Virus record (IMG/VR): IMGVR_UViG_3300028388_006420
Location: 1 to 42,122 of that record
Length of the DNA stretch: 42,122 nt
Source: a virus
Strand: one strand, 5' to 3'
Position 1 is the first letter of the stretch; each line of letters begins with the position of its first letter. The position numbers were made by a program, and so were the translations under genes. This document shows, piece by piece, positions 7,392-39,100 of this stretch. Below the pieces are notes generated by a model, which did no database searches, was not told the DNA's origin, and saw only the letters and a list, made by a program, of their open reading frames with translations.

Positions 7392-7971
7392 GAATTGGAA
7401 AGAAGAGAAAGGAAAAAGAACAGAAGTAACTAAAATTAACTTTAGAGGATATGTATTAACTAAATATAATGTATTGTATAGGTTTAGACAAGACAAAAAA
7501 GTTTATGTTGCTGAAAAATGGGAATGTTTAACAGAAGATGAAGAATTGCGAGAATTTATTTTTCGTAGTGAATACATTGATGATGGAGATGATGATGTTT
7601 CTTGGTCTTATACTGCATTAAGTGATACTCAAACATATTGTACTGTTCCTAATTCTATAACTGATTACAGAATTGAACGAAAAGAGTTTGAGCAAGATGG
7701 TTTAACTATTTATAAACGCGGATTTGTGCGTAGAAATTCTAATATCTTTTTAGATGAAGAAAACAAAAAACATAAATTAAGAATACGTGCATTAAATGCT
7801 TTAGTTAAGCATAAGCATTTTCCAAGCGCATTACGAAAAGCAATTAGGTTACGAAGAAAAGTAGAAAAAGAACCGTGTAAATCAGTATTTAATAAATGGA
7901 ACAGTTTAGATAAAGTTACTAAAGATTTAGTAATAAAATTACTTAATCTAAAGTTAAAGAATTATGAATAA
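7366..7971 (+). CDS. Hypothetical 201-aa protein upstream of DNA polymerase
   Basis: A soluble, charged protein with an N-terminal beta-rich half and a basic helical C-terminus (about residues 135-201). It overlaps the lysin gene by 26 nt and the DNA polymerase gene by 8 nt, so it is translated with the polymerase. The basic C-terminus would suit nucleic-acid binding, but no family is recognised. Confidence 0.55.
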   Translation: MNIKTIAYKNWKEEKGKRTEVTKINFRGYVLTKYNVLYRFRQDKKVYVAEKWECLTEDEELREFIFRSEYIDDGDDDVSWSYTALSDTQTYCTVPNSITDYRIERKEFEQDGLTIYKRGFVRRNSNIFLDEENKKHKLRIRALNALVKHKHFPSALRKAIRLRRKVEKEPCKSVFNKWNSLDKVTKDLVIKLLNLKLKNYE

Positions 7972-9113
7972 AACATGGGTGTATGACTTAGAAACGTATA
8001 AAAACTGTTTTCTTGCTGGATTTCGTAATATAAAAACAGGTAAATATAGAATATTTGAAATATCGTTTAGAAAAAATCAAGTAGAAGCTTTATATAATTT
8101 CTTAGTAAATGAATGTCAGTTGCTTATTGGATTTAATAATTTATCATTTGATTATCCAATATTACACGCTTTATTATTATACAAAAGCGCTAATCCAACT
8201 TATTATTTTAATATAGCACAAGCAAGAATTACTACGAGTAGAATGCACCCTAATCCTAAGATTCCACAATTAGATATGTATCGTATACTTCATTATAATA
8301 ATAAGGCTAGAAGAACAAGTTTAAAATGGTGTGAGTTTGGTCTAAGAATGGAAAATATTGCTGACTTACCATATGAATATAGTATAAAGTTAACCTACAA
8401 AGAAATTGATCTTTTAGTTGATTATTTGCATAACGATTTAGACGCAACGTATGCATTATTTGATGCTTTTCAGGATAAAATATACATTAGAAATGTATTA
8501 AATAGAGAATATAATCTAAATTGCTTAAATTACAGTGACTCAAAAATAGGTGAAGAATTAATACTTAAATTTTATTTAGATTATACTGGTAAAGAACGAG
8601 AGAAAGTAATAAAAAAGAGAACTAAAAGAGAAAAAATAATAGTCAGAGATATAATCTTTGATTATGTAAATTTCAAGACTAAACTATTTAACGATGTTCT
8701 TGAAGAATTACGAAATACTATAATTACTAATACTCGTAATGGGTTCTCATTATCTTTTGTGTATAATGATTTAGAATACCATTTAGGTCAAGGTGGGATA
8801 CATTCGTCACAAAAAGGAATATTTAAAAGTAATGAAGAATATGTGATACTTGATCTCGACGTCGCAGGCTACTATCCAAGCTTAATGATCCAAAATAATA
8901 TTTATCCAGAACACTTAGGGCCGGAATTCATTAAAGTATTAGACGAAAAAATCGTTACACCTAGAGTAACTGAATACAAACCAAAAAGTAAAGACAAAAC
9001 ATTACATTATAAGCAACGTAAATTATACGGAGCTTATTCTGATTCATTTAAATTAGCGGGTAATAGTGTATACGGTAAAAGCAATGATAAGTATAGTTTT
9101 TTATATGATCCGT
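7964..9113 (+). CDS. DNA polymerase B, exon 1 (exonuclease, palm motifs A and B)
   Basis: Exon 1 of the replicative polymerase, about 383 aa. A 3'-5' exonuclease is shown by YDLET (residues 7-11, Exo I), NLSFD (59-63, Exo II) and HNDLDATY (156-163, Exo III). Polymerase motif A is DLDVAGYYPS (297-306) and motif B is KLAGNSVYGK (363-372). The frame runs on to TAG at 9122-9124, but those bases are part of a group I intron: exon sequence CCGT ends at a U-G pair in the P1 helix, placing the 5' splice site after 9113. Motif C lies downstream at about 10443. Confidence 0.85.
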
Positions 9114-10430
9114 TAAGTAACTAGCGGATTTAAAACTCATTAAATTGCTGGAAAGTTCAACACGTTAATTAAACTACAACGCAATCCGCGAGGATATTCG
9201 TGAATGTTTAAAAATTAATTAATTTGGAACAATCAGCAGCCAAGCCAGTCTCACGTAAGACGGAAGGTTCAACGACTAATTATTAAATTTTTTAAATAAA
9301 ATTGAAAAAGTGAGTAAGAATTTTAAAATATATGGGTTAACTGACAAAAATGAAACAATTCGTTATATCGGTTTAACTTCAAAGTCTTTAGAAAAGCGTT
9401 TAAAACAACACAAGCAAAGTTCAAGAAATAAATTTACACACAAGGCTAATTGGATAAAACAACAAGATTATAAAATTGATATAATTCTTTTAGAAGATAA
9501 CTTAACAAAAGAAGAAGCTATTGAATTAGAAATTGCTTATATTGTACAGTACGGTAGAGATAATTTAACTAATGCTACAGATGGTGGGGAAGGTGTGAAA
9601 GGATACTTATATACGTTAGATGATCTAAAAAATTGGTATAGCGCTATACCGATTTGTCAATATGATTTGACGGGTAAATTTATAAAATCTTTTCCAAGTA
9701 TTAGTATAGCTGCTAGAGAATTAAATTTAGGTATTGATGCAATAAACAAATGTGTAAATGAAAATAGTATTACATCTTATGGTTATTTTTTTATCAAAAA
9801 TGATGATAAAAAAGAAGAAGTGTTGGCTAGAAAACTTAAAGATAATTATAATTATAAATTAGTAGATATAGAAGGTAATATAATTGCTAAAAGTAATACT
9901 ATTAAATATTTAACGGAAAATTATCCGGTATTAAAAAATAGTTATAAAACAACTAAGCAGTGTTATTATAACAATGGTGTGGAGAAACCTAAAACAAAAT
10001 ATTTTATTTTACACAAATCAATGGACGAAAAAATATTTGCTGAAAAAAATAAAAGAATTATTGTATATGATATTCATTGTAATAAAATAGGTACATATGC
10101 TAATTCAAATATTGCCGCAAAGTATTTAAAAGCAAATCCGTCATCCATTAATAATTGTGTTAGCGGTAGAAGAAAAAGTTTTAGAGGTAATAATAAACAG
10201 TATATTGCTTATTATATTGGTAAAAAATGTAAGCAATATAAACACGCTCGTTGGAACTCTGTCGCGCTAGTTGATGAAAAAAGTAAAATATTGCAAGTAT
10301 ATAAAAATGCAAAATTAGCTTCTTACGATACCGGATGTGATCCAAGTGTTATTCTTAAATGTTGTAAAAAAGAACGTAAACAAACTAAAGGAAAGTATTT
10401 TAAATTTCTTAATGATATAGTCTAAAAAAG
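9114..10430 (+). other. Group I intron in the DNA polymerase gene
   Basis: The paired elements occur in group I order: P1 CCGTTA (9110-9115) with TAGCGG (9122-9127, U-G at the splice site); P3 ATTTAA (9128-9133) with TTAAAT (9283-9288); P4 TTGCTG (9145-9150) with CAGCAG (9234-9239); P6 GTCT/AGAC (9248-9261); P7 GACTA (9274-9278) with TAGTC (10418-10422). The R-like stretch GGTTCAACGACTA is typical. A homing endonuclease sits in the P8 loop. After P7' only about 8-11 nt remain before coding sequence, so P9 appears absent; the 3' end is approximate (a G at 10430 or 10433). Confidence 0.8.
9310..10425 (+). CDS. GIY-YIG homing endonuclease with NUMOD-type repeats
   Basis: A 371-aa protein starting at GTG 9310. 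Residues 6-34 show the GIY-YIG core (KIYGL, then RYIGLTSKSLEKRLKQH), with the catalytic Glu region EAIELEIAYIVQYG at about 76-89. The C-terminal part holds several NUMOD-like DNA-binding repeats: YDLTGKFIKSF near 116, VYDIHCNKIGTY near 250 and VALVDEKSKILQVY near 320. It would cut intronless polymerase alleles to spread the intron. It lies in the P8 loop, and its last codons overlap the P7' strand of the ribozyme. It is AT-rich, like other mobile intron genes. Confidence 0.85.
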   Translation: MSKNFKIYGLTDKNETIRYIGLTSKSLEKRLKQHKQSSRNKFTHKANWIKQQDYKIDIILLEDNLTKEEAIELEIAYIVQYGRDNLTNATDGGEGVKGYLYTLDDLKNWYSAIPICQYDLTGKFIKSFPSISIAARELNLGIDAINKCVNENSITSYGYFFIKNDDKKEEVLARKLKDNYNYKLVDIEGNIIAKSNTIKYLTENYPVLKNSYKTTKQCYYNNGVEKPKTKYFILHKSMDEKIFAEKNKRIIVYDIHCNKIGTYANSNIAAKYLKANPSSINNCVSGRRKSFRGNNKQYIAYYIGKKCKQYKHARWNSVALVDEKSKILQVYKNAKLASYDTGCDPSVILKCCKKERKQTKGKYFKFLNDIV

Positions 10431-10433
10431 TAG

Positions 10434-11069
10434 TTACAATCGAACACTGATGGTTTTACTCTTTACCTCAAACGTAAAGACGTCCCTAAAGTCAAAAAGT
10501 TAGTTTCTCAATGGGAAAAAACTACTAACTTGATAATGGAATATCAAGAGTATAATCAAATGTTTATTAGAGACGTAAACAATTATTTAGTAGATGCTGC
10601 TTCATACACCAAAGAAAAAGGCGCTTATGAAGTAGAAAAGAAAGTAGGTTCTGAATTAGCACTACATAAGAATAATAGTATGCCTATTGTTCAGCTTGCT
10701 GTTAGAGAACATCTAATAAATAATGTAGACTTGGAAGAGTTTATTAGAAATCATGATAACATTTATGATTTTTGTATTGGTAAAAGAGCTAGAAGTGGTT
10801 GGTATTTTACTTATGATGATAAAAAACTAAAAAACACAAAAACAGTAAGATATTATGTGACCACAGATGATAAATGTGGTATACTTAAGAAATGTAATGA
10901 AGATGGTAGAGAATTATTATGTGAAGCTTGGCCTAGCAATAAGGTTGCCGATAGAGATAAACATTGGAAAATTAAGCTTTTAAATAAATACGAAACTTTA
11001 GAAGATTATCAGATTAATTACGACTATTATTTGCGTGAATGTCGTAAATTAGTAAATGACTTAAACTAA
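10434..11069 (+). CDS. DNA polymerase B, C-terminal exon (motif C onward)
   Basis: The open frame from 10434 begins LQSNTDGFTLYLKRKD, which is polymerase B motif C (NTDG in place of DTDS). It continues with a typical thumb-like end (IRDVNNYL, KGAYEV, HKNNS), 211 aa in total. There is no proper start here; a TTG at 10530 is unlikely to be one. Between motif B in exon 1 and motif C here only about 20 residues are found, while polymerase B enzymes usually have about 50-65, so some 30-45 residues seem missing. Joining 9113 to 10431 or 10434 is also out of frame. Confidence 0.75.
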   Translation, partial: LQSNTDGFTLYLKRKDVPKVKKLVSQWEKTTNLIMEYQEYNQMFIRDVNNYLVDAASYTKEKGAYEVEKKVGSELALHKNNSMPIVQLAVREHLINNVDLEEFIRNHDNIYDFCIGKRARSGWYFTYDDKKLKNTKTVRYYVTTDDKCGILKKCNEDGRELLCEAWPSNKVADRDKHWKIKLLNKYETLEDYQINYDYYLRECRKLVNDLN

Positions 11070-17771: not shown

Positions 17772-18755
17772 GTGTTTAGAGGATATACCCACAATATAAA
17801 TACTAAAGTTCAAAAGGAACAAATCTTTAAAAATCAAAAAAAGATATTTAAGAATTATCTTGGCGTAACTCCTAGTATATCCTCTAGACTACATTCTCCA
17901 TTTCGTAGTGATCGAAATCCAGACTGTAGGTTTACTACACATGAGGGTATATGGTATTTTATAGATAATGCTACGTATAAGGGTAAACTTACATTCAATT
18001 GTATTGAATTAGTAATGTATATGTTTGAAGTTAATTTTAAGCAAGCATGTAATATGATCTCGCAGGAAGTTGATCTTAGTGGTCAAGAACAGTATGAAAA
18101 TTACTTGTTTAAACCAGTAATTAAGTTTAAGTATAGTAAGTGGCCAGAAGATAATTATTTTACGCGTAATTATGGCATTAGTACAAAATATTTAGATCAA
18201 CAACCGTATTATTATGTAACAGATTATTATACTAATTCAAAGAATAATTTACTGTTAACTAAAAACACAATATATAATCCCCGAAACGTTGAAACAATTG
18301 CTTATCATTTTGATGAACGAGTAAAGTTGTATTTTCCTAATCAGGATATACGATTTTATAGTTCGTGTAATAATGATGATATTTTTGGATTTCATCGTTT
18401 TGGGGATTATCTTTTTAGTAATGATGTCATCATTACTAAATCAGGTAAAGATGAAATGGTTGCTAATTATCATTTAGGTTTAGCAACGTTAGCGGTACAA
18501 CAAGAAACTACAAGATATTTACCAGATAAAGTATTAAGAAATTTAAATAGATTTGATAATATTTACGTATGGTATGATGCAGATTATACCGGATTAGCTT
18601 GGTCAAAATATATGGTAAATTATCTTAATTCACATTTTCCTAATAAAGCTAAAGGAATTTATCACAAATTGGAGCTAGGTAATGATATTGCAGAAATATA
18701 TGAAAATTATGGAAAAAATCTTTTAAAAATAACTTATGAAAATTGTACAAGATAA
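17772..18755 (+). CDS. DnaG-like primase with TOPRIM domain
   Basis: A 327-aa protein starting at GTG 17772. The N-terminal segment contains SPFRSDRNPDCRF (42-54), as in the CHC2-type primase domain, but without its full set of zinc ligands. The TOPRIM part has a TKSGKDEM strand near 222 (Lys/Glu of the metal site) and a VWYDADYTGLAW motif near 266 (DxD). It would make RNA primers and partner the DnaB-like helicase. It overlaps the next gene by 20 nt. Confidence 0.75.
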   Translation: MFRGYTHNINTKVQKEQIFKNQKKIFKNYLGVTPSISSRLHSPFRSDRNPDCRFTTHEGIWYFIDNATYKGKLTFNCIELVMYMFEVNFKQACNMISQEVDLSGQEQYENYLFKPVIKFKYSKWPEDNYFTRNYGISTKYLDQQPYYYVTDYYTNSKNNLLLTKNTIYNPRNVETIAYHFDERVKLYFPNQDIRFYSSCNNDDIFGFHRFGDYLFSNDVIITKSGKDEMVANYHLGLATLAVQQETTRYLPDKVLRNLNRFDNIYVWYDADYTGLAWSKYMVNYLNSHFPNKAKGIYHKLELGNDIAEIYENYGKNLLKITYENCTR

Positions 18756-19104
18756 GAATCCTCTTGGGAAAAGCCCACGTTTTCGATTTGATGAAGCTGG
18801 GATTATTTTCGATCATCACGGGCGAACAACTTTTAATCATCTTCGCCATGAACATGTGACTAGAGAATTTAATTTTGAAGAGTTAATTAACTTACTTGAG
18901 TATAAACCTAAAAAAGTTAAAATCCCTAGCGAACTTCAAGAGTTTATTGAAGGATTACAACACGTTGATGAAGAACAATTAGATAAACAACAGTTGCTAG
19001 ATATTATATATAAGTTCAATAACTTTTTAATTAAAAACTTTCTTGATGATCAAGAAATTCAAAACGAAGTTCAAGATACACAAGAGTTGGTATTCTCTAT
19101 TTGA
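18736..19104 (+). CDS. Hypothetical 122-aa protein
   Basis: A soluble protein starting inside the primase gene's 3' end and overlapping the UDG gene by about 59 nt. The N-terminal part has His-rich stretches (IIFDHHGRTTFNHLRHEH), a possible metal site. The acidic helical C-terminus looks like an interaction tail. No family recognised. The long overlaps show tight packing of the replication operon. Confidence 0.5.
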   Translation: MKIVQDKNPLGKSPRFRFDEAGIIFDHHGRTTFNHLRHEHVTREFNFEELINLLEYKPKKVKIPSELQEFIEGLQHVDEEQLDKQQLLDIIYKFNNFLIKNFLDDQEIQNEVQDTQELVFSI

Positions 19105-19687
19105 GAATAACTTAGATGTAATTGTTAAAATATTAAGCGAGCTTCCTAGTAAAGATATTTCCCCTAAACCAGAGCTTATGTTTAAAGCGTTTGAAACAGA
19201 TTTGGCTAATGTAAAGATGGTTATTGTTGGTCAAGACCCGTACCCTAATGCACAGTTAGCAACAGGTAATGCTTTTGCTGTACCACAAGGCAAGACTTCT
19301 GAAAGTTTAAAAGAAATAGAGAAATATGCAAATCAGTACGGTATTAAACTAGATTATACACTCCAAAACTGGATGGATAATGGGATACTGTTACTGAATG
19401 CAGCATATACTACAAAAAGTGGTTCTATTGGAACTCATCGTAGTTTATGGGAACCATTTACTAAACTAGTTTATGATTATATTGTGAAACATAATCCTGA
19501 ATGCATGATTATTGCGTTGGGCAGTGTTGCAAAAAATGCAGCTAAAGGTATTGTACCAAAAGATAAATTTATGTATTTTCCTCATCCTGCCGCAAATGTA
19601 TACAGCAATCAAGAACTTTTTAACAAGGAATTTTTTACCCAAACAGAACAATATGCAAATTGGAATAATTTCCACGAGAACGTCTAA
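19046..19687 (+). CDS. ung: Uracil-DNA glycosylase (family 1)
   Basis: A 213-aa enzyme that removes uracil from DNA. Hallmarks are GQDPYP (62-67, catalytic Asp64), the LLLNAAYTTKSGSIGTH block (115-131) and the HPAANVY leucine-loop position (180-186; canonical HPSPLS), so the second motif is altered but the His is kept. ATG 19046 is used. It overlaps the previous gene by 59 nt and the following amidotransferase gene by 35 nt. UDG is a common member of crAss-like phage replication modules. Confidence 0.85.
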   Translation: MIKKFKTKFKIHKSWYSLFENNLDVIVKILSELPSKDISPKPELMFKAFETDLANVKMVIVGQDPYPNAQLATGNAFAVPQGKTSESLKEIEKYANQYGIKLDYTLQNWMDNGILLLNAAYTTKSGSIGTHRSLWEPFTKLVYDYIVKHNPECMIIALGSVAKNAAKGIVPKDKFMYFPHPAANVYSNQELFNKEFFTQTEQYANWNNFHENV

Positions 19688-20309
19688 TGGTGTAACTGGA
19701 CAAAATGATGCTTATCTTAGATTTTTCAGTATGTTTACTGATAACATAATTCAAATTGATCCTTTGAATGAAGTAGTATATGATAATTTAAATTTGTTAG
19801 TACTACCCGGTGGTCCAGATGTTGATCCACAACGTTATGGTGAAAAGCCAAGTCGTTTTACTGGACGACCAAACCCACAAACAGAGTGGTTTGATCGAGT
19901 AATGTTACCTAAATATATTGCACGTAAAATACCTACTTTTGGTATTTGTCGAGGACATCAATCTTTAGTTGTTCATTTTGGTGGTAAAATCAATCAGCAC
20001 ATCAATGTTGATCATTCTACTAAATCTCGCGCCGAACTGGTAGATGTAATGAATATTGTTACTGAAAATTTACCCTTTGAATATAAAGATAAGTCAGTAA
20101 AAATTAACAGTATTCACCACCAAGCAGCAAATGCAGAGAGCTTAAAGAATACAATTATGCGTCCATTAGGTTTTGAACGCACGTATAAGAACATAGAAGC
20201 ATTAGCTTACGGTGATTTACCCATTCTATCGGTACAATGGCATCCAGAAGAGTGCTATGATAAATTTGCAATTGCTTGTGTTAATTACTTACTAAATTAT
20301 AACCAATGA
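19653..20309 (+). CDS. Class I glutamine amidotransferase-like hydrolase (peptidase C26 / PuuD-like)
   Basis: A 218-aa protein from ATG 19653; the longer frame upstream is the UDG gene read in another frame. The triad is visible: Cys99 in GICRGHQ and His198/Glu200 in WHPEE. The LVLPGGPDVDP motif (49-59) and the INSIHHQAA block (151-159) are typical of gamma-glutamyl hydrolases of the PuuD/C26 group. It would cleave gamma-glutamyl or glutamine amide bonds. It heads the amide-bond cassette and overlaps the amidoligase start by 4 nt, so it may reverse or edit the ligase reaction, or supply ammonia. Confidence 0.8.
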   Translation: MQIGIISTRTSNGVTGQNDAYLRFFSMFTDNIIQIDPLNEVVYDNLNLLVLPGGPDVDPQRYGEKPSRFTGRPNPQTEWFDRVMLPKYIARKIPTFGICRGHQSLVVHFGGKINQHINVDHSTKSRAELVDVMNIVTENLPFEYKDKSVKINSIHHQAANAESLKNTIMRPLGFERTYKNIEALAYGDLPILSVQWHPEECYDKFAIACVNYLLNYNQ

Positions 20310-21097
20310 TAATCAATCCCACTTTTGGTAGTGATTTTGAAGCATTTGTCGAATCACCAAATGGAATTATTCCTGTTACTGGGCTTTTAGGTGGAACTAA
20401 AAGCGACCCACTTGAAATTGGTAACGATTGTTTTCGTCAAGAAGATAATGTTTGCTGTGAGTTTAATACAAAAGTAGTGCAAACAGAAGATGAATGGATT
20501 GATAGTATTCAGTACTGTATTAAGGTAGGTAATGAGATTTTAGATGATAATAAACTTGTACTTAAAAGTAGTCATGAATTTGATTTTATGACATTAATGA
20601 GTGATGAATCATTAATGACTTTTGGTTGTGAACCAGCCTTTGACGCATACAATGACGGTAAACCAATTGAAATTAATATGGTTGATGCGCTAGAACTACG
20701 TAGTGCAGGATTTCATATTCATGTAGGATTTGAAGGTAATATTGAACATGATGAAATTATTCGTTTTATTCAGTTAATGGACCATACTGTAGGTAAATAC
20801 AGTGTAGAAGTAGATGATGATACTAAACGACGTATCTTGTATGGTAAAGCAGGAGAGTATCGTTTTAAGCATACTAAAAAAGATATTTCTATCATCGAAT
20901 ACCGATCAGTAGGTACTGGTGCTGCTAATACAGAAGAAAAACAACGTCAATTATTTCGTCTTACAAATCAAGCAATTGATCTGTTTAACGAAGGAGTTAA
21001 GTTAACTGAAGAACAACTAATTAAAAATCAACAAATAATTAATACATGTCAGAAACAAGAAAAGTCGCAGTATACGGAAGCCTTCGAGCAGGTTTAG
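20306..21097 (+). CDS. COOH-NH2 amidoligase, phiEco32-like type 2
   Basis: A 263-aa member of the glutamine-synthetase-fold amidoligases found in phiEco32-type phages. It begins TFGSDFEAFV (6-15), the metal-binding GxDxE strand, then CCEFN (50-54), GFHIHVGFE (135-143) and the diagnostic EYRSVGTGA near 198. These enzymes join a carboxyl to an amine with ATP. The substrate is unknown; peptide tags, cell-wall peptides or small molecules are the usual proposals. It is encoded in a run of amide-chemistry genes and overlaps the next one by 52 nt. Confidence 0.8.
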   Translation: MIINPTFGSDFEAFVESPNGIIPVTGLLGGTKSDPLEIGNDCFRQEDNVCCEFNTKVVQTEDEWIDSIQYCIKVGNEILDDNKLVLKSSHEFDFMTLMSDESLMTFGCEPAFDAYNDGKPIEINMVDALELRSAGFHIHVGFEGNIEHDEIIRFIQLMDHTVGKYSVEVDDDTKRRILYGKAGEYRFKHTKKDISIIEYRSVGTGAANTEEKQRQLFRLTNQAIDLFNEGVKLTEEQLIKNQQIINTCQKQEKSQYTEAFEQV

Positions 21098-21489
21098 GTA
21101 ATCATGGTCTAATTGGTCATCCTTTACAACAAGGTAATGCTAAGTTTTTAGGAGTTTTTAAAACAGAACCAGTATATACATTACATCATTTAGGTGGATT
21201 TCCTGGATTAAAGCGTAATGGTAATACAGCCGTGGTAATGGAAGTTTATGAAGTAGATCAACAAACTGGTAAAAGTATTGATCAGTTAGAAGGTTACAGT
21301 GAAAAACGTGAACCTACGTTTTACGATCGGGATGTAATCGAAACTCCTTGGGGAAATGCGTTTACTTATATTTATATGGGAAATCCTAATAATCCTGTTG
21401 AATCAGGTGATTGGACATTAGAAATCACTGGACAAACAAACTATGTCGAGAATAAAGAACAAGAAGGGCTATCTGCACATTCGGAGTAG
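21046..21489 (+). CDS. Gamma-glutamylcyclotransferase-like (AIG2/GGCT fold) protein
   Basis: A 147-aa protein with the AIG2/GGCT signature VYGSLRAG (9-16), a hydrophobic core, and LEGY near 85 with the catalytic-type Glu (DQLEGY). GGCT enzymes release gamma-glutamyl groups as 5-oxoproline. Here it probably removes or recycles a gamma-linked glutamyl product of the neighbouring ligases. It overlaps both neighbours, so translation is coupled. It ends with TAG. Confidence 0.8.
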   Translation: MSETRKVAVYGSLRAGLGNHGLIGHPLQQGNAKFLGVFKTEPVYTLHHLGGFPGLKRNGNTAVVMEVYEVDQQTGKSIDQLEGYSEKREPTFYDRDVIETPWGNAFTYIYMGNPNNPVESGDWTLEITGQTNYVENKEQEGLSAHSE

Positions 21490-22231
21490 ACACCCTTCTC
21501 ACGATCAAATAAAAAATCAGATTGAACATCCTAGTGCGTGTATTCGTTTTGGTTCTCAAACAGAAACAAATCACGATATACAACTGAATTTACCACGAGC
21601 GATTGCGCTAAGTGCTAATAAGTTAGAGATGAAACGAATTTTTGCCGAAACTACCGAACACACTCCGCAATATTGGGAGTCTCATGAAAACGTTCAATTG
21701 CCTGTATTAGCGAAACGTGCGTTTCGCTCACGGGGTGTTGGTATGCGTAAAATTGATACGCAAGAGCAGTTAACAGAGTTCATTAATTCTAATCGCTATC
21801 GTAACTCAATTGGGAGTAATAATCCATATTACTTTGAGAAGTATCATAATTACACACGAGAGTATCGCCTTCATATAAGTGAATTTGGATGTTTTTACTC
21901 TTGTCGTAAAATGTTACGTAATAATGTAGAAGAAAATCGTTGGTTTAGAAACGATTCAAATTCTGTATGGATTACACAATATCACTATACTAATGGTGTA
22001 TATCATAAAGGTTTACTTAAATCACAATTTAATCAGCCAGACACTTGGGCATTAATTGTTGAAGAATGTGAAAAATGTTTAGACGCTATTGGTTTAGATA
22101 TTGGAGCATTTGATGTAATTGTTGCTCGTGATGGTCGATTTAAGATTCTAGAGGTAAACTCTGCCCCTAGTTTTGGTGAACTTACTGCAAAAATGTATAT
22201 TGAAGAATTAAAAAAAATACTGAATGTGTAA
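21443..22231 (+). CDS. ATP-grasp ligase
   Basis: A 262-aa ATP-grasp enzyme. The ATP-binding glycine-rich loop is seen in VLAKRAFRSRGVGM (89-102), and the metal-binding end in FKILEVNSAPSFGEL (232-246). These enzymes activate a carboxylate as acyl-phosphate and couple it to an amine. It resembles the RimK/YheCD-like phage ATP-grasp proteins that occur with amidoligases. It overlaps the GGCT gene by 47 nt and the GATase II gene by 8 nt. The peptide or amino-acid substrate is unknown. Confidence 0.8.
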   Translation: MSRIKNKKGYLHIRSRHPSHDQIKNQIEHPSACIRFGSQTETNHDIQLNLPRAIALSANKLEMKRIFAETTEHTPQYWESHENVQLPVLAKRAFRSRGVGMRKIDTQEQLTEFINSNRYRNSIGSNNPYYFEKYHNYTREYRLHISEFGCFYSCRKMLRNNVEENRWFRNDSNSVWITQYHYTNGVYHKGLLKSQFNQPDTWALIVEECEKCLDAIGLDIGAFDVIVARDGRFKILEVNSAPSFGELTAKMYIEELKKILNV

Positions 22232-23813
22232 TTTATCTGGATACATTGGAAAAGAAGCTAATGTAAACACATTAAAGTTATTAATGATATTTGGCAGGGA
22301 GCGTGGTAAACATGGTTGTGGTTTTGCTTATAACGATGTACATAGTCGTTCCACTACATATATAGAAAAAGATAGTATTGATTTTGTGCTTAATAATGAG
22401 TTCCCCATAATTGATGGGGACTCTCATCGAATTATTATGCATAATCGACAAGCTTCTTCGGGTAGTCAGTTAGTTAAAAACGCACATCCTTTTAAATATG
22501 ATGATAATGGTCGAGTTATGTATTTTATGCATAATGGAACCATTAACAATACAACTGCTTTAGCTAAACAGTTTAACTTAGATTTTAAAGACTTTGATGT
22601 AGATTCTCAACTGTTGGGTCAAATAATCTATAATGCTGATAATGATTTTAAAGTTATTGGTGATATGTTGCGTAGCTATGAAGGTGGTGCAGCGTTAGTA
22701 TGGTATTACGAAGACGAAAATACTGTAAATGTATGGAAAGGTGCATCAATCAATCATAAAGGAAAAGAAAAAGAAGAACGTCCTTTAGATTTGATTTATT
22801 TAGATCAAGGTATTTATTTTGCTTCAAAATGGGAACATTTAGCAGCAATTGCTAATCATCTCAATCATAAGATTTATACTTTTATTCCTAACCAGATTTA
22901 TACTTTAAGTACAGATTCAACGCATATGCGTGCACGTAAGATTAATCGTCAAGTAAAAGAATACGTTTCCGTTACTTATTATAAAAATTATACTAGAGGT
23001 AGTTCAACAGTTACTAAATATGAACAAGAACGTAATCCAAGTAAAATGGCTAGTTTTGATGAGATTTATTATTATAATGGTAAGTATTACGTTAAGAAAG
23101 AGAATACAGATGTATTAGTGCATGGTGGAGTATGGGTTAATGATGATAATATTATTACTGAGAACACAAACGATGAGCGTCTCTGGTTCTACCGAGGTTA
23201 TTGGATGAAAAATGAAGAAGCTTACAGTAGAATACTTGCTAGAACTAATCAAATTAAGCCACCCTATCACGATGTTCATAAAGAAAGTATTTACTTGGTT
23301 GGTCAAAAATACTACAATGGTCGTAATTGCATTAACCAGTGGATTACTGATAAGCGATTTGCGTTTTATGATTATAAAACAGATGTAAATGCTTACTTAG
23401 AAAAAGATCGCTTGACTCGACAAGTTTTTCGTGGTTTATTTAATATTACTGGTGACGAAATTGATGAAACTGAACAGTTACAGGTAGAAAATTATAATAA
23501 GGGAATGGCTGGCTGGCAAGTTAAAAGTGATTGTAAAACATTAGACGAATGTGAAGAACACTTTGCACAAACTATGGGGGTTGAATCGTATTTAAACCTG
23601 CAAGCAACTTATAATGAGTTAATTACTGGTTTTTGGGATAATGATCACCTCAATTTGCATTCTGATGTAGATCAATTTAATAGAACACATGGTACTAGTT
23701 TTATTACCAAACGTGCATGTAATGATTATTATTATGAAAAGAATCATGCTCCTTACAATAATGCTTGGCCGCTAACTGAATCTAAATTTGTAAATTACGA
23801 ACAATGTCAGTAA
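22224..23813 (+). CDS. Class II (Ntn-type) glutamine amidotransferase with novel C-terminal region
   Basis: A 529-aa protein. Residues 1-200 are an Ntn-hydrolase glutaminase: it starts Met-Cys, so Cys2 becomes the catalytic N-terminus after Met removal. ERGKHGCGF (26-34), HNRQASSG (73-80) and MHNGTINN (102-109) are the GATase II glutamine-binding motifs. The remaining 330 residues are not a known synthase domain; they are Tyr/Asn-rich with repeated YYNGKYY-like segments (about 270-360). It would release ammonia from glutamine for an adjacent ligase. It overlaps both flanking genes. Confidence 0.75.
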   Translation: MCNLSGYIGKEANVNTLKLLMIFGRERGKHGCGFAYNDVHSRSTTYIEKDSIDFVLNNEFPIIDGDSHRIIMHNRQASSGSQLVKNAHPFKYDDNGRVMYFMHNGTINNTTALAKQFNLDFKDFDVDSQLLGQIIYNADNDFKVIGDMLRSYEGGAALVWYYEDENTVNVWKGASINHKGKEKEERPLDLIYLDQGIYFASKWEHLAAIANHLNHKIYTFIPNQIYTLSTDSTHMRARKINRQVKEYVSVTYYKNYTRGSSTVTKYEQERNPSKMASFDEIYYYNGKYYVKKENTDVLVHGGVWVNDDNIITENTNDERLWFYRGYWMKNEEAYSRILARTNQIKPPYHDVHKESIYLVGQKYYNGRNCINQWITDKRFAFYDYKTDVNAYLEKDRLTRQVFRGLFNITGDEIDETEQLQVENYNKGMAGWQVKSDCKTLDECEEHFAQTMGVESYLNLQATYNELITGFWDNDHLNLHSDVDQFNRTHGTSFITKRACNDYYYEKNHAPYNNAWPLTESKFVNYEQCQ

Positions 23814-25303
23814 TAACTATTAATAATGAAAGAGTAGCACGAGAAGAAGCTGCTTATATCCGTGGAGCTTATTATAAAATTGGTGATCCTAACGTAAAAG
23901 ATTCGGGAGATTGTTATCCAATGGAAGAAGATGATCGTTCTATTCAGAGATATCGAATGGGAACTGGAAAAATTGAATGGGATCATGTTTTAAATCGGTA
24001 TAATTTTACCGATCGTATGCTCAAAGGAATAACTAAAGATGGTACGTTGGGTTACTTTACATCTAATAATAACACTCGAGCTTATTATGCTGATGATAAA
24101 GGTCGAGTAATGATGTATCCAATTATTGAGTATAATGAAGATATTGGTTACTGGTGCAGTAACTCGGGTGATTTTGTTGTTAATAATAGCAATCATCCAA
24201 ATAAATTAATTAGCGAGCATCTTAATCGAGTTAATCGTAAACAATATAATGAGTTTGGGTCTACTCAATCAGGAACATATAACTTAGTAGATGTAAGTAA
24301 ACGTTTACGAAATAAAGTTGGTCATACAGCAAATAAAAAAAAGCCATTATTTGCATATGCGGAAGAATGTTATAATGCACTAAATGGACGCACGCTTGGA
24401 TTAGAAATTGAAACAAGTCGTGGAGTAGTTCCCGAACCGTGGTTGTTTGATTACGGTTTTATTCCACTGCGCGATGGATCAGTTTCAGGTGTAGAATACA
24501 CCAGTATTGTTATTAATAATCTACAACGATTTAATAATATCTTTCACTTTCTTACTAAGGGAAAAGATTTTATGTCAGTAAATAATAATACTAGTTTTCA
24601 CGTACACGTAGGTAATTTTGAGTTCAAGAATAACCAAGAACTAATGCAATATGCATTAAGTATTTATATGCTTTATTATCACCTACAAACTGAGTTTGAA
24701 GATATGGTTCCGTTGTATAAGCGTGATCGTCGTCATCAGGTTCGTCGTGACTATTGTCAACCAATGCGTTCGTTGAGGCTTTATTATAATAATATAAAGA
24801 ACGATCCCGAAACTTTTGAGATTGAGTTTAATAAAATTTATCAGCTTTATAATGATGGATTACCGATGTCGCCTAAATCTAATTTAGATACTCGTACACC
24901 ATATAAAGATGTTGCTAAATATCAGCACGATGGTCGTTATTATTCACTGAACTTGTTTAACTTGTTCTTTGGTAATACTTATACTACTGAATTTAGAATT
25001 CATCACGGAACAACTAATCCTGATAAAGTTATTGCGTGGACAATGATTTGTGCGGCATTAGCTAATTTTGCTAAAGATAACTATGAAAATATTGTACTGA
25101 ATAAACGTAAATATAATTTATTTGAAGTTATTGAAAGTGTCTACGGCAACAGCTTTATTACTGAATATCTTAATGCTTACATTGATGATCGCAAACAATA
25201 TTTCCAAGATTTATATTTTCGTGGTGATATGCAAGGAAATGAGTTTAAAGCTGATAATACCTTTAAATTTAAATTAAATGGACGAAGTTTAACAGATGAG
25301 TAA
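23804..25303 (+). CDS. Amidoligase (PF12224-type)
   Basis: A 499-aa protein whose C-terminal half is a classical amidoligase domain of glutamine-synthetase fold: GLEIET (near 199), RDGSVSGVEYTS (near 223), SFHVHVG (near 264) and TEFRIHHGT (near 395). The N-terminal 190 residues are an unassigned Tyr/Asn-rich region resembling the style of the preceding GATase's C-terminus. It is the second COOH-NH2 ligase in the cassette, overlaps the GATase II gene by 10 nt and the nuclease gene by 8 nt. It likely makes an amide link using ammonia or an amine provided by its neighbours. Confidence 0.8.
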   Translation: MSVITINNERVAREEAAYIRGAYYKIGDPNVKDSGDCYPMEEDDRSIQRYRMGTGKIEWDHVLNRYNFTDRMLKGITKDGTLGYFTSNNNTRAYYADDKGRVMMYPIIEYNEDIGYWCSNSGDFVVNNSNHPNKLISEHLNRVNRKQYNEFGSTQSGTYNLVDVSKRLRNKVGHTANKKKPLFAYAEECYNALNGRTLGLEIETSRGVVPEPWLFDYGFIPLRDGSVSGVEYTSIVINNLQRFNNIFHFLTKGKDFMSVNNNTSFHVHVGNFEFKNNQELMQYALSIYMLYYHLQTEFEDMVPLYKRDRRHQVRRDYCQPMRSLRLYYNNIKNDPETFEIEFNKIYQLYNDGLPMSPKSNLDTRTPYKDVAKYQHDGRYYSLNLFNLFFGNTYTTEFRIHHGTTNPDKVIAWTMICAALANFAKDNYENIVLNKRKYNLFEVIESVYGNSFITEYLNAYIDDRKQYFQDLYFRGDMQGNEFKADNTFKFKLNGRSLTDE

Positions 25304-25757
25304 TAAAAACCGAAACAAAGGTCATCGTCTTGAACGATTGTTGGCCAAAGTATTTCGGTGGTTGGGGTTTGCCTACTGTAAGACTAGTAGGCAAGCTTCC
25401 CGACTTTTAGATGATTGCGGAATTGATTTAGCTTTTGTGCCATTTTTGGTACAAGCAAAAGCAGGATATAATCGTAATCGACCGAAATATGAAATTGAAT
25501 ATCAAAATATTAAGAAGAATATTAAAGAGAATTATCCGAAAGATGATAAAATACATGATATGCCAATTGTATTAATACATAAGTTAGACGGCAGAGGTCC
25601 AGAACATTTTCAATGGATTTTTATGCATGACGATATTATTCATATATTAAAAGAATATTATGAACTAAAAAATGAAAGAGAACTATCTAAAAGACAAGAG
25701 GTTAAATCAAAGCTTTCTAAAGAAATTCCTAAACCCAAATCCAAGGAGTCTATATAG
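25296..25757 (+). CDS. PD-(D/E)XK nuclease, Holliday-junction-resolvase-like
   Basis: A 153-aa protein. It has the resolvase-type layout: a basic N-terminus with KGHRLERLLAKVF (Glu13), SRLLDDCGIDLAF (Asp44) and VQAKAG (Gln-x-Lys, 53-55), matching E-GxD-QxK of archaeal-type resolvase/VRR-NUC nucleases. It could resolve replication or recombination intermediates. The last 30 residues overlap the next gene by 86 nt and are Lys/Ser-rich. It ends with TAG. Confidence 0.7.
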   Translation: MSNKNRNKGHRLERLLAKVFRWLGFAYCKTSRQASRLLDDCGIDLAFVPFLVQAKAGYNRNRPKYEIEYQNIKKNIKENYPKDDKIHDMPIVLIHKLDGRGPEHFQWIFMHDDIIHILKEYYELKNERELSKRQEVKSKLSKEIPKPKSKESI

Positions 25758-26553
25758 ATGTAAAGATCAAGATTTATACTTTGAACGAGAGAAAATACAC
25801 TTTACAAAGGGTAAATTAGTAGATATATTTTTAACTGGTACAAATGAAGATTTTCATAATAATTACATAGTTAGTGACGTGGAGTATAAAGCCAGCGCTG
25901 CTGTTGATTCAATTATACAAGAATTATTGGATAATGATTTAGATTACTCGCAAATTATAAATATTGCTAGAAAACAAGGATACCGTAATAATTATACGGA
26001 TGAAACGTTAATAGAATATTTTGATAAATATAAAGAATATTATAACTTTAGAAAAGAAAGTAAGAACAAAACAGTAATTAGTGTAGAAGACTTAGAATTA
26101 GCTGGACAAATGTCTACTGCATTATTACAGGGAGAATATACCTCTAAATATTTTAAAAATGCTAAATTTCAAGTTGATCTTTATACGGATAAGTGCAAGG
26201 GATTAATTGATATTTTACAACTCACTGATAATACAGTTAGAGTAGTAGACATTAAAACTACTGGTGATTATTTAGAAAAATTCTCTTTTGACAAATTCAA
26301 TTATGATGTACAGTTATTGTTTTACGAGCAAATAGTTATCCATAATTATCCTAAACATGAACTATTACCAAGTACAATACTAGCAGTTAGTAAAAAGGAA
26401 CCAGAATATGCGGAACCTTTTCAAATGACTGAAGAAACAAGAAATAATGGATTAGAAAAACTTAATACTATTTGGGAAAACTACAATTACTGGACTCAAC
26501 ATCATAATTATTATAATAGAGAACTAAAAGAAAACGGAGTAAATTATGTATAA
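25672..26553 (+). CDS. PD-(D/E)XK exonuclease (RecB/ExoVIII-like)
   Basis: A 293-aa nuclease. The N-terminus LNQSFLKKFLNPNPRSLY is the standard opening of phage RecB/Exo VIII-like nucleases, supporting ATG 25672 despite the 86-nt overlap. The core is GLIDIL (near 178), VDIKTTGD (near 192-199, Asp and D-x-K) and YDVQLLFYEQ (near 211-220, the Gln/Tyr helix). It likely resects double-stranded DNA ends for the Sak4/SSB recombination pathway. Confidence 0.75.
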   Translation: MKENYLKDKRLNQSFLKKFLNPNPRSLYRCKDQDLYFEREKIHFTKGKLVDIFLTGTNEDFHNNYIVSDVEYKASAAVDSIIQELLDNDLDYSQIINIARKQGYRNNYTDETLIEYFDKYKEYYNFRKESKNKTVISVEDLELAGQMSTALLQGEYTSKYFKNAKFQVDLYTDKCKGLIDILQLTDNTVRVVDIKTTGDYLEKFSFDKFNYDVQLLFYEQIVIHNYPKHELLPSTILAVSKKEPEYAEPFQMTEETRNNGLEKLNTIWENYNYWTQHHNYYNRELKENGVNYV

Positions 26554-28544: not shown

Positions 28545-29759
28545 ATGATTAAACAATCAGCAATTGGGTTAAACTCTCGAACAGAAGCTAATCCTTATAA
28601 CGAACATGGATTTTTACCAATTATTACATCACCGATGAATAGTGTGGTAAACAGTAAAACATGTAATAGCTTTTTAAAGAATAAAATTCAAGTATGTTTA
28701 CCTCGTAAGTCTGAAGCACAGTTTTTAACATTAAACGAACTTAATGTAGTATTTGAATCATATAGTTTAAGTGAGTTTAACAAACTATTTATTGGAACAG
28801 ATCAAGGTATGTATAACGGTGTAGATAGTCAATATACTGTTACTAAAGTTTGTATTGATACTGCTAATGGTAATATGCAAGTTTTACATGATAAAATTAG
28901 TTTTGCTAAGAAACTGTATGGAGATAAATTAATCATCATGGCAGGTAATGTATCTTCTGTAGATGCGTTTATTGAATTAGCTAAAACAGGTGTAGATTAT
29001 ATTCGTGTAGGTATTGGTGGCGGTGGTGGGTGCACTACTACTGTGCATACTGGTGTAGGTCAAGAAAACTTAGAAACGTTAATTAAAGATTGTAAGAAAG
29101 CACTTAATAAACTAACCTTAGAAAGTTTTGGTGCTGGTATGAGTAACCCGCATATCGGCGGTAATCATGATAAATTTAAAGCACACGAACTTAAAGCTGT
29201 TGAAAAGCTTAAAAAGTTTAGTCGTGTAAAGATTGTCGCAGATGGCATTTCAAGCTTTATTAAGCAAGAGAATTTACATCGTAATGGCTATGCTGCTATT
29301 AATCGTTTACTCTACGCAGGGGCGTCCCTAGTGATGATTGGAAGCATTTTTAATAAAGCTTTAGATAGTGCTGGTGAGAAACTCATTAAAGATGGTAATA
29401 GAATGTTAAAAGAATCAGAGATTGATAATGATTTGCAAAAAGAATGGTATACTAATCCGGTGTGGAAACGAGATAAAACAATTTATTCTACATATCGTGG
29501 AATGAGTACTCGGGAAGAGCAGAAGACTTATCGTAAACCAGTAACAAGCATAGCACTCGATACGGGTGTCAAACGCAGTCTTCCAAATATACGACCATCA
29601 GAAGGTAAAACTATCACTCTTCTCGTAGAATATACTATTAAGGAGTGGGTAGAAGGTTGTGACGACAATCGTCATGATGATTTTCCTGGATTTGTTAATG
29701 CACTTAAATCTGCTATGGCTTACACTGGTAGTAAAACAATGAAAGAATTTAAACAATGA
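28545..29759 (+). CDS. IMP dehydrogenase / GMP reductase family enzyme
   Basis: A 404-aa TIM-barrel protein. IIMAGNVSSVDAFIEL (near 128) matches the strand of IMPDH/GMPR before the active loop. VGIGGGGGCTTTVHTG (155-170, catalytic Cys163) is the substrate loop, KIVADGIS the phosphate strand, GASLVMIGSIF the second phosphate site, and YRGMSTREEQ (near 320) the flap. CBS domains are absent. IMPDH makes XMP toward GTP and GMPR converts GMP to IMP; the motifs do not decide which. Phage copies likely adjust purine pools. It overlaps the next gene by 4 nt. Confidence 0.8.
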   Translation: MIKQSAIGLNSRTEANPYNEHGFLPIITSPMNSVVNSKTCNSFLKNKIQVCLPRKSEAQFLTLNELNVVFESYSLSEFNKLFIGTDQGMYNGVDSQYTVTKVCIDTANGNMQVLHDKISFAKKLYGDKLIIMAGNVSSVDAFIELAKTGVDYIRVGIGGGGGCTTTVHTGVGQENLETLIKDCKKALNKLTLESFGAGMSNPHIGGNHDKFKAHELKAVEKLKKFSRVKIVADGISSFIKQENLHRNGYAAINRLLYAGASLVMIGSIFNKALDSAGEKLIKDGNRMLKESEIDNDLQKEWYTNPVWKRDKTIYSTYRGMSTREEQKTYRKPVTSIALDTGVKRSLPNIRPSEGKTITLLVEYTIKEWVEGCDDNRHDDFPGFVNALKSAMAYTGSKTMKEFKQ

Positions 29760-32024: not shown

Positions 32025-32846
32025 ATGAGAACTAAAAATTATTGCGCTACGCAAGATATTAGTCTTGCTCAACAAGCTGTTGGAGTTACTAGTAAATACT
32101 GGAACGTAGGACAAACAATTAACATTGCTTTTATAGAAGGCACACAAGATCAACAAGATTTTGTTAAGAAAACTGCAAAGTTATGGTTAGATCATGCTAA
32201 CTTAGACTTCAATTATACACACGATCTTTTAGAAAGTGACATACGTATTGCTTTTATGGAAGGCAGAGGTTCGTGGTCGTATATAGGTAAAGATAATTTA
32301 CATATTAAAAAAGACGAACCAACTATGAATTTTGGTTGGTTAGACCAAGCTGTAGTATTACATGAATTTGGTCATATGTTAGGATTGGGTCATGAACACC
32401 AAAACCCTAATAAACCAATTGAATGGGATATTGATGCATTAGTAGCAGACTTAAGTCAACCACCTAATAATTGGACTAGAGAACAGATTCAATTTAATAT
32501 TATTAATCGTTATGACCCTAATTCAGTAGATGCTACTGCTTTAGATTCTGAATCAATAATGATGTATCAAATTCCAAGCAGGTGGACAAAGAATAATTTC
32601 TCTGCCGGATTTAATGAAGAGTTGTCTGAAACAGATGTTATGTTTATTTCAGCTATTTATCCAGAAACAATAAATATTCCCGATAAAGAATTACTTACTC
32701 ACGTATTTCAAACTAGGAAAGAACTAAAAAAACTAAAAGAAATTACAGTAGTTCGCATTGGAGCTTTATTTGGATTACCTACTAATCAAAAATTACGCAA
32801 GCGACATAATGTTGATATTGTTGCAAGACATTTAAATTTAAAGTAA
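32025..32846 (+). CDS. Metzincin metalloprotease (astacin/matrixin-like)
   Basis: A 273-aa protein with the metzincin zinc site HExxHxxGxxHE at 113-124 (H113, E114, H117, H123) and a Met-turn region SIMMYQIP near 182-189. No signal peptide is seen, so it may act inside the infected cell, be carried in the virion, or be released at lysis. The C-terminal 60 residues are helical. Metzincins are usually secreted enzymes, so a cytoplasmic phage one is uncommon. Targets are unknown. Confidence 0.75.
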   Translation: MRTKNYCATQDISLAQQAVGVTSKYWNVGQTINIAFIEGTQDQQDFVKKTAKLWLDHANLDFNYTHDLLESDIRIAFMEGRGSWSYIGKDNLHIKKDEPTMNFGWLDQAVVLHEFGHMLGLGHEHQNPNKPIEWDIDALVADLSQPPNNWTREQIQFNIINRYDPNSVDATALDSESIMMYQIPSRWTKNNFSAGFNEELSETDVMFISAIYPETINIPDKELLTHVFQTRKELKKLKEITVVRIGALFGLPTNQKLRKRHNVDIVARHLNLK

Positions 32847-36174: not shown

Positions 36175-39100
36175 TTACTGAGAGAACATTTTAAGTTGTT
36201 CTTCAGGAAACATTGCTTTCTCAATATTATTAAGTATTGGAAATAAACGTTTCGAGTTGACCCACATATATGTATCACCTTTATTCTTTCCACTTTGATA
36301 AACCCTCCAAAAAGGATCATCTTCAATTGCATAACCGATTGGATCGATTACTTTTCTAAATCTAAGTATGGTTTCAATTTGATTTACCGCAGCCGCGGGA
36401 GACTTAAGAATTCTTAAAGCTTCTGATGGATTAGTGTAAAACGATAATTCAGTATATAAACGATTTGCTTGATAAGCAGTAAATGCTAATAACTTATCGT
36501 CTACTTCATCATCACCTCCGTCAGCAAGAGCGGTTAATACCCCACCGATAGTTAAAGCAGCTAGCATATAACCTACTTCAACTTGAGTACGAACTATATT
36601 AGCTTGTTCATAAGGTTCTAATTGATCCCATTGTTCTTGTGTGGTAGCTAACAAGCCTTGCTGTCTTTCTTTAGCTTCTCTCCATATACTTGATAAGAAG
36701 CGTCCACTAGTACGATAGTATCCTTCTGTTGGTGTATCGATCTGAAAATCGTATTGCTGCTTTTTATATCTACGTAAATAACCAGGTCTAATAAACTTTC
36801 TAAAAAGTAGAGCAGTTCTACCTAATGCATATTTCTGCATTGCACCACGATCGATTTGATTATAGATACCAAATAAATCCTGATTAATTTTATTAATTGT
36901 TCGACCTAGTTTTCCTAGATCGTCTAGTGTAAACACATCACCATTTAATTTAGTAGTTCCTCTGTGAATTGCTATTCTACCATCTTTAACGTATACGGCA
37001 TCCCACAAATCAACTTCTTTACCGTTTAACAACAGTTTAGTTTCGTGAACTAACGCTAAAGCAGTACGAGATTGTATTTGATGTTCACCGGCATGATTGA
37101 TAAAATATAATGAAGATAAACTAAACATTCTACCTGTTTTTGTTCTGCCAGCATTAGAGTATCGAGCACGCTGTACGTGATTCTCAAATACATCTAAATA
37201 ATCTAGTAAAGCACCTAATTTAGATTCACTATGAGTTTTACCAATATCTTGTAATACACTGCGAAGATTGGTCCAGTAAGTCTTATCAGCTTTGTTAAAT
37301 GATTCTTTAGAAGCGTACTGTTGAGCAGCACGCTCTTGTTGAACCATTACATTACCCTGTAATACGTTAGCGAAACCAGAGTAAACATTTAAGGCTAATC
37401 CTTGAATAGATGCATAAGTATTTAAAAAGTCAACAGTTTTTGCGGTATCTAAACCTAACCACGATAACCATTCTTCTTTTTCTTTTAACTTACCGTATAC
37501 AACCATATCCATATAGTCTTCCCATCTATTTGCTGCCTGTCCACCAGGCTTAGTATCATAGGCTTTCTTGCCACTAAATAATTCTGATACTTTACCAAGC
37601 AAATCATTTCCTTTAACAACTTTACGCGTATTAATTACATCAGTAGCTACATTCAACACGTCAATTATATTATTCATTTCAATATAATTATTACCCATAT
37701 CTAAATAAGCAGCTAATGACTCAGTAAAATCAGTAGATAAATCATCTACATTTTGAAGTGGACGAGTGAAGAATACAGGTAAGAACTTAACTTCTCGATC
37801 AAGCTCATCGGTTAATGTCATACCAAATTCAGTATCGTCTTCTACTGCTTGAAAAGAATCCTTTAGTTCCTGTAAAGTATCTAGCGGACTGCTTTGTAAG
37901 CGTTGTAAAAAGTCTTTACGTAATTGAGGCAATAAATTATCCTGTCGATATACTTCAGGAAGTTTACTGTCTATTTGCTCTTTAAGTTCAATAAAACGTT
38001 CGTAATATTTCTTTTTAATCGGATTATTTTGAATTGCATCATACTGAGGATTAGCATATCTATCATTAGGTACAGTAAGCTCATTACGATAATAAATACC
38101 ATTACCTGTTTGATTATGTAAATATGCAGAATATCCTCTATTCTTGTGCAACCAACCTAAGAATAATTCTTGAATTCTAATTAGTTGAACTTGGTGTTCC
38201 GTAGATGCTTCTTTGTTTACATATTCACTACCTTTTTTAAGCTTCTCAAACATTTCATCTTTATACTGCGGATCATCCATAAGTTCATCATAAATACGAT
38301 CAAACTTCTTTCTGATTTCCTCACTAGCATTAGAATTAGGTTGTGTGTTATCTGCAAACCATAAAGCTTGTTCTTTTTTATACTTTTTCTTAACAGCATT
38401 AATTACAAAGTTAACTTTTTCAGTGCGCGTTTTGCCCGGTGCCTTTTTAAGTTCTTTTTTGTAATTCTCAATAAATTCTTCTTTAGCGTCATTAAGATCA
38501 ACGTAATCAAATAATTTTCTACGCTCTTTAAAATCTAACGGTATGTGATATTTGTTACGAAGTTTAGTCATGAATTTATTTAACTCTTCGTCAAATTGAG
38601 TTTGATTGTACTCCTTAACAATATTATGCGTACCCTTTCCATTATATTGTTCTTGTATAAATGAGTTATCAATTCCCGCTTCTTTTAATTCTTTTTCAAG
38701 ATTAAATAACTCAACAATTTGTTCTTGCGTAGTTAATCGTGCATTTGTTTTAGCATTCTTTACATACTGATCGAGTAGTTTCAATCCGTTATCATTAGTA
38801 TTTGCTAATGAATCCCACCACCTTGATATAGTATTAATATCATCTGTTTCACGTAAATGAGCTTCAATGTCTTCCTTGGTTAATTGACTATTACCTACAT
38901 AAGGAGACAATACCTCGGCTAACATTGGAATTGCAATATTATAATACTCTGTTTCAAGATCGGTTACTTGATCAATTATTTTAACTAACTTACCTCTAAT
39001 TTCTTTTAGTTCTTCTGTATCTGCCATCTTAGCTTTAATGTCTAAAACTATTGGCTTATACGTAGTAAGATAGTCTTTTAATGCGGTTAATGTTCGAGCA

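Follow-up and report, generated by a model that had tools for sequence, protein, structure and literature searches.

For RIO1-like phages, a seven-gene "peptidoglycan modification cassette" is described in PMC5498523, which cites Hardies 2013 and counts phiEco32, 7-11, PA11, tf, MR299-2, LUZ24, PaP3 and CW02 among the phages that carry it. In PMC11945000 this module is named for a LUZ24-like phage, and two suggested roles are repeated there, either a block to superinfection or the building of a phage-directed wall that suits the endolysin. PMC10580990 credits the idea of a wall target to Iyer 2009. The gene table of UFV-P2 (PMC3890496) holds five of the six families considered below, and a PaP3p47-like ORF separates the two ligases in it. 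The literature yielded no demonstrated reaction for any cassette enzyme, and in its open-access part we found no paper linking an amidoligase with crAss-like phages.

Characterised relatives of the ligases with a GS fold activate the gamma-carboxylate via an acyl phosphate. In the PuuA/PuuD putrescine pathway and in butirosin protection, a ligase adds a gamma-glutamate that is removed by a C26 hydrolase or a GGCT. These are bacterial metabolic pathways with known substrates, whose likeness to the phage cassette lies at the superfamily level.

Here, we describe a locus that probably represents, in a crAss-like virus, the phage amidoligase cassette already known from phiRIO-1, phiEco32 and LUZ24 as a putative peptidoglycan-modification module, and that most likely encodes a cytoplasmic gamma-glutamyl ligation-and-removal pathway. 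That the cassette occurs in crAss-like viruses, with a layout of its own there, may not have been described in open-access text so far, though the corresponding gene annotations of the Cellulophaga phage phi14:2 are in GenBank.

Results and Discussion

The virus and the cassette region

The window, by which we mean the whole stretch of 42,122 nucleotides that was analysed, covers 42 kb of the IMG/VR virus record IMGVR_UViG_3300028388_006420, which is itself a fragment of 50.8 kb. Its only nucleotide-level relative in the phage collection is phi14:2 (Crassvirales, Steigviridae), and matches to Pfam and PHROGs surround the cassette with PolB, Sak4, DnaB, primase, a UDG-like protein and a PD-(D/E)XK exonuclease. 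By these replication genes and by synteny with phi14:2, the virus, known from the 50.8-kb fragment, is assigned to Crassvirales.

Table 1 Cassette genes and flanking genes in the window, with the matches by which they were recognised
Feature	Length	Position	Strand	Matches and remarks
DNA primase		17772..18755	+	phrog_12622 7e-29; upstream neighbour of the cassette
Uracil-DNA glycosylase-like protein		19043..19687	+	Pfam UDG 2.5e-7; neighbour typical of crAss-like context
C26 / class I GATase-like hydrolase	218 aa	19653..20309	+	Peptidase_C26 5e-29 (best Pfam family), GATase 2e-15
phiEco32-type COOH-NH2 ligase	263 aa	20306..21097	+	phrog_3815 7e-45; GS-fold carboxylate-amine ligase
GGCT / gamma-glutamylamine cyclotransferase-like protein	147 aa	21046..21489	+	Pfam GGACT 3e-16
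RimK-like ATP-grasp ligase	262 aa	21443..22231	+	phrog_2599 6e-29
Ntn class II glutamine amidotransferase	529 aa	22224..23813	+	GATase_6 4e-9
Amidoligase_2 (PF12224)	499 aa	23804..25303	+	Pfam 4.5e-7; phrog_2443 1e-21
RusA-like nuclease and PD-(D/E)XK exonuclease		25296..26553	+	phrog_244 4.5e-8, phrog_412 8.5e-17; downstream neighbours

The cassette (19653-25303) consists of six ORFs on the same strand in the order C26 hydrolase, COOH-NH2 ligase, GGCT, ATP-grasp ligase, class II GATase and Amidoligase_2, with successive overlaps of 4, 52, 47, 8 and 10 nt. The sequence-only reading of this DNA had proposed six consecutive overlapping genes of these six families, and both proposals hold, each family assignment being supported by Pfam and PHROGs. 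The core, comprising both amidoligase types, the ATP-grasp ligase and the class II GATase, is adjacent in one operon-like block, beside which the window carries both the GGCT and the C26 hydrolase. Since promoter-like sites are no more frequent in the cassette region than in shuffles, the transcription unit is deduced solely from gene packing. None of the six proteins was matched by a PADLOC defence model.

Several other features of the window deserve mention. The PolB gene is apparently split, with ORFs 7964-9124 and 10530-11069 matching phrog_1252 positions 52-425 and 486-651, and a GIY-YIG/NUMOD homing-endonuclease-like ORF (9310-10425) sits between the two parts, which suggests an intron or homing element inside the gene (7964-11069). 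A protein resembling IMP dehydrogenase/GMP reductase (PF00478, 9e-22) is encoded at 28545-29759 of this phage genome. An astacin-family (M12A) metalloprotease-like protein (32025-32846, 4.5e-10), unusual for a phage, lacks a PHROG match, as do two very long minus-strand ORFs of 1303 and 631 aa (36175-41981) on the strand opposite to the cassette.

Comparison with described cassettes

The cassette of phiRIO-1 and PSA-HP1 likewise packs two GS-like amidoligases, an ATP-grasp ligase, a class II GATase and a GGCT beside DNA metabolism genes. The window differs from it in being crAss-like, in having its own gene order, in lacking the P47-like protein and in carrying both removing enzymes. Within the crAss-like phages, phi14:2 (NC_021806) has five of the six genes between a primase and a group of UDG, RusA and exonuclease genes, the same neighbours as in the window. 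In the window, however, the UDG gene is located upstream, and phi14:2 lacks the C26 hydrolase and has the order GGCT, ATP-grasp, COOH-NH2 ligase, class II GATase, Amidoligase. The gut crAss-like phage cr108_1 (NC_055878) has consecutive genes for the C26 hydrolase, the COOH-NH2 ligase, the class II GATase and the amidoligase with an ATP-grasp gene nearby, but it contains two extra genes and no GGCT was found in the vicinity.

Active sites and predicted folds

The model of the COOH-NH2 ligase (pLDDT 93.4) has a GS-like fold, and acidic, His and Arg residues are conserved in its active site: D10, E12, E52 and H137 occur in 82/82 loci, and E198 and R200 are invariant in 81-82. Comparison of the model with 1tt4 gives a VIA Z of 14.5 (3.1 A, 214 aligned), followed by YbdK (14.3), PafA/Dop (14.0-14.2), a plant glutamate-cysteine ligase (13.6) and glutamine synthetases (about 13); the top VIA rows are tied, PafA/Dop being as close as YbdK. 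The Amidoligase_2 combines a separate beta-rich N-terminal domain (1-110) with a GS-fold domain at about 190-490, in which E201, E203, E231 and H266, part of a conserved E-x-E and an HxH, are present in 78/78 loci. Residues 194-488 of its model (pLDDT 84) come nearest to 1tt4 (VIA Z 11.9, 4.4 A, 240 aligned) and YbdK (11.8). Judging from these models, both GS-fold ligases are closest to YbdK and related glutamate ligases. When the profiles of the two GS-like ligases were searched by sequence against solved structures, neither gave a useful match; only the fold comparison was informative.

The ATP-grasp ligase has a profile closest to RimK (1e-11), and its K60, E140, R142, D224 and E237 are found in 79/79 loci; fold family and metal ligands fit a RimK-like ligase. 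The class II GATase displays the motifs of a glutaminase site (an MCNLSG start with Cys2 as the nucleophile, R75, NAHP, HNG and D127), with Cys2 retained in 76/77 loci and R75 and D127 in all, followed by a C-terminal half of about 290 aa without an assigned fold. An accessory domain common to this half and the N-terminus of Amidoligase_2 was considered and rejected (profile comparison probability 0.1%).

For the first gene, the sequence-only reading had given the triad Cys99/His198/Glu200; the cysteine is correct, whereas the other two residues are in fact His197 and Glu199. The triad is kept in 56/58 loci. That reading had also seen two ligase types joined with two types of glutaminase. All of these families are present, and such a combination is common for this cassette, but the class I protein is more likely a gamma-glutamyl hydrolase (C26, PuuD-like) than an ammonia-feeding glutaminase. 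Its nearest relatives among solved structures by sequence are Lin1909 and PuuD and also GMP-synthase subunits, and it matches PuuD-type models as well as glutaminase models. We favor the hydrolase because the protein alternates with GGCT in podophages.

The GGCT has a YGSLR loop and a catalytic Glu82 that is invariant in 48/48 loci, and its profile matches YtfP and human GGACT-family chains. The conserved active-site loop is encoded within the 52-nt overlap with the COOH-NH2 ligase gene (21046-21097); in the three related contigs that share the window's gene order, the corresponding overlap is only 8-11 nt.

Recurrence and two arrangements

An alignment-based scan added 80 further loci from IMG/VR and 7 from bacterial genomes, while viral contigs searched with the window's ligase alone as query gave no matches. 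Removal of near-duplicates at 80% identity left 82 non-redundant loci. The survey was seeded on the COOH-NH2 ligase, so that all counts describe what accompanies this ligase. The four core enzymes occur together in 74/82 loci; of the 47 loci flanked by 6 kb in both directions, 46-47 contain any given core enzyme. All six families are united in 20 of the 74 core-complete loci. The set had been called unusually complete, a description that fits poorly with these numbers and with a cassette previously described and named. It had further been considered that the genes might be scattered in relatives and their catalytic residues not conserved. Instead, the core stays together, and the key catalytic residues are intact in the window and hardly vary among the 48-82 non-redundant loci available for each family, so the proteins look like working enzymes under selection.

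The window's gene order, for which a search in other phages had been proposed, was found again in three related contigs (L012, L013 and L014), although in L013 the C26 ORF is cut short by the end of the contig and does not pass the strict motif test. Named phages bearing the cassette include phi14:2 and cr108_1 (crAss-like), Leptolyngbya phage Lbo-JY46, Alcaligenes QDWS535, Vibrio 1.293.O, PA11, GP100 and CVT22 (Zobellviridae), KBNP1711 (Gordonclarkvirinae), BUCT695, 3H10_20 and SE131 (Grimontviridae), LUZ24, LAh_9, BA6 and Asterion, along with others.

Two arrangements can be distinguished. In the podophage type, a P47-like protein (phrog_4877) separates the COOH-NH2 ligase from the amidoligase that comes after it. 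The P47-like gene is present in 45/74 core-complete loci and absent from the window and the crAss-like type; it marks a subtype, not the cassette as such. Among the 34 loci lacking P47, 28 have UDG, Sak4, exonuclease or another crAss-type replication gene as a neighbour; no locus of the podophage type does. A primase-like gene (single-linkage cluster) is found close to the cassette in 55 loci, 25/34 of the P47-lacking and 30/48 of the podophage type. Among environmental crAss-like viruses the cassette is common, in the arrangement without the podophages' P47-like protein. The "hypothetical" of ~190 aa between the COOH-NH2 ligase and the amidoligase of podophages was also evaluated as a class I GATase and rejected, as it forms a separate family.

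Among the recurrent neighbours, LUZ24 gp14/gp15, KBNP1711 gp090/gp091 and cr108_1 gp029/gp030 had no informative Pfam match. Genes for a ribose-phosphate pyrophosphokinase and a nicotinamide or nicotinate phosphoribosyltransferase lie near the cassette in Aeromonas LAh_9 (L100, 17000-20138), Salmonella SE131 (L102, 1920-4483) and Leptolyngbya Lbo-JY46 (L003, 1-2673). A 160.8-kb contig of a Rickettsiales MAG (L094), possibly a mis-binned phage or an integrated element, carries the C26 hydrolase, COOH-NH2 ligase, class II GATase and two amidoligase matches, with no ATP-grasp gene in the stretch examined.

Distribution of the two putative removing enzymes

At least one of C26 and GGCT is present in 71/74 core-complete loci. 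Of the 45 core-complete loci of the podophage type, 22 have only C26, 19 only GGCT, two both and two neither. This exclusivity is pronounced when relatedness is ignored (Fisher p 1.6e-8), but the COOH-NH2 ligase tree requires only about four changes to account for the alternation, and a tree-based independent-pairs test, with too few pairs, is not significant. Replacement of one enzyme by the other in the podophage arrangement is hence suggestive, not proven. A simple reading of the two families would be that both remove gamma-glutamyl groups. Since they usually co-occur in the crAss-like type (18/29 loci), the two are not simply redundant.

Proposed function and alternatives

The interpretation of the cassette as one that makes and removes amide bonds, already offered by the sequence-only reading, appears right. 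In the order of reactions that we infer, the class II GATase would hydrolyse glutamine to release ammonia or glutamate, and the two GS-fold ligases would use ATP to activate a carboxylate, most likely the gamma-carboxylate of glutamate, and couple it to an amine. A further amino acid would be added by the RimK-like ATP-grasp ligase, while the C26 hydrolase and the GGCT would strip gamma-glutamyl groups in a trimming or deprotection step. That named phages from several families share this gene set counts for the explanation, as do the nearly invariant active sites, the GS-fold models of the two ligases, the RimK-like profile of the ATP-grasp ligase, the PuuD-type relatives of the C26 protein and its alternation with GGCT, and the fact that prior authors arrived at the same module and at the wall hypothesis. 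The resemblance of the C26 protein, by sequence, to glutaminase subunits counts against it, as do the small number of changes behind the alternation and the usual co-occurrence of C26 and GGCT in crAss-like loci.

Wall peptides, virion proteins and small metabolites had all been listed as targets, and we accept them as possibilities. Our best guess, a tentative one, is that the substrate would be soluble peptidoglycan precursors, giving a phage-altered wall. None of the six proteins has a signal-peptide-like hydrophobic start, so that peptidoglycan, if it is the target, would be reached only through such precursors; against the wall reading, a cytoplasmic pathway has no access to the finished wall. 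The window's recognised lysis-type enzyme is a glucosaminidase (6834-7391; PF01832, 1.8e-14). Its N-terminus is hydrophobic, its gene shares a strand half with the replication genes, and it is likely an endolysin. It cuts glycan and not peptide, which bears on the idea of an endolysin-suited wall, and other lysis genes may be missing from the fragmentary record.

Alternatively, the cassette might not act on peptidoglycan but make or remodel a small gamma-glutamyl metabolite, such as a glutamylated amino acid or polyamine, in which glutamate would be a protecting group in the manner of Puu and butirosin. The combination of a GS-fold ligase with a C26 hydrolase mirrors PuuA/PuuD and that of a ligase with a GGCT mirrors butirosin, the C26 protein resembles PuuD-type models, the alternation with GGCT fits deprotection, and all proteins look cytoplasmic. 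We nevertheless regard this alternative as doubtful, as no oxidase, aminotransferase or transporter appears among the clustered recurrent neighbour families and three ligases exceed the needs of a single protection step. A related proposal, which we consider unlikely, is that crAss-like and unrelated podo-type phages have in common a cytoplasmic pathway that does not modify the wall but protects and deprotects with gamma-glutamyl groups, serving a dedicated phage metabolite or a reversible tag, with C26 and GGCT being interchangeable.

The similarity of the ATP-grasp ligase to RimK, a ribosomal S6 glutamate ligase, and the equal closeness of the COOH-NH2 ligase fold to PafA, Dop and YbdK raise the question of protein tagging, in which proteins of the host or the virion would receive glutamate or peptides from RimK-like and PafA/Dop-like ligases and lose them again through GGCT/C26. 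The GS fold is, however, common to many non-protein ligases, and no Pup-like or other recurrent small carrier was seen in the conserved set (clustering covered ORFs of at least 90 aa), making this a quite improbable explanation. Least credible is hypermodification of DNA to an amino-acid-bearing base. The cassette does adjoin a primase and other replication genes, with a uracil-DNA glycosylase in crAss-like viruses, but these are general replication genes of such viruses. The cassette set contains no recognised base-hydroxylating or base-kinase partner, and HaeIII is reported in the literature to cut the DNA of tf, a phage that carries the cassette.

Implications

This cassette of five to six enzymes is maintained intact with invariant active sites in crAss-like, phiEco32-like and LUZ24-like phages, Zobellviridae and Grimontviridae, and must therefore be useful in infection. 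The differing layout in crAss-like viruses allows the essential parts to be told from those that are lineage-specific. The long-standing guess that such cassettes modify the wall becomes testable in tractable phages of laboratory E. coli and of Cellulophaga baltica.
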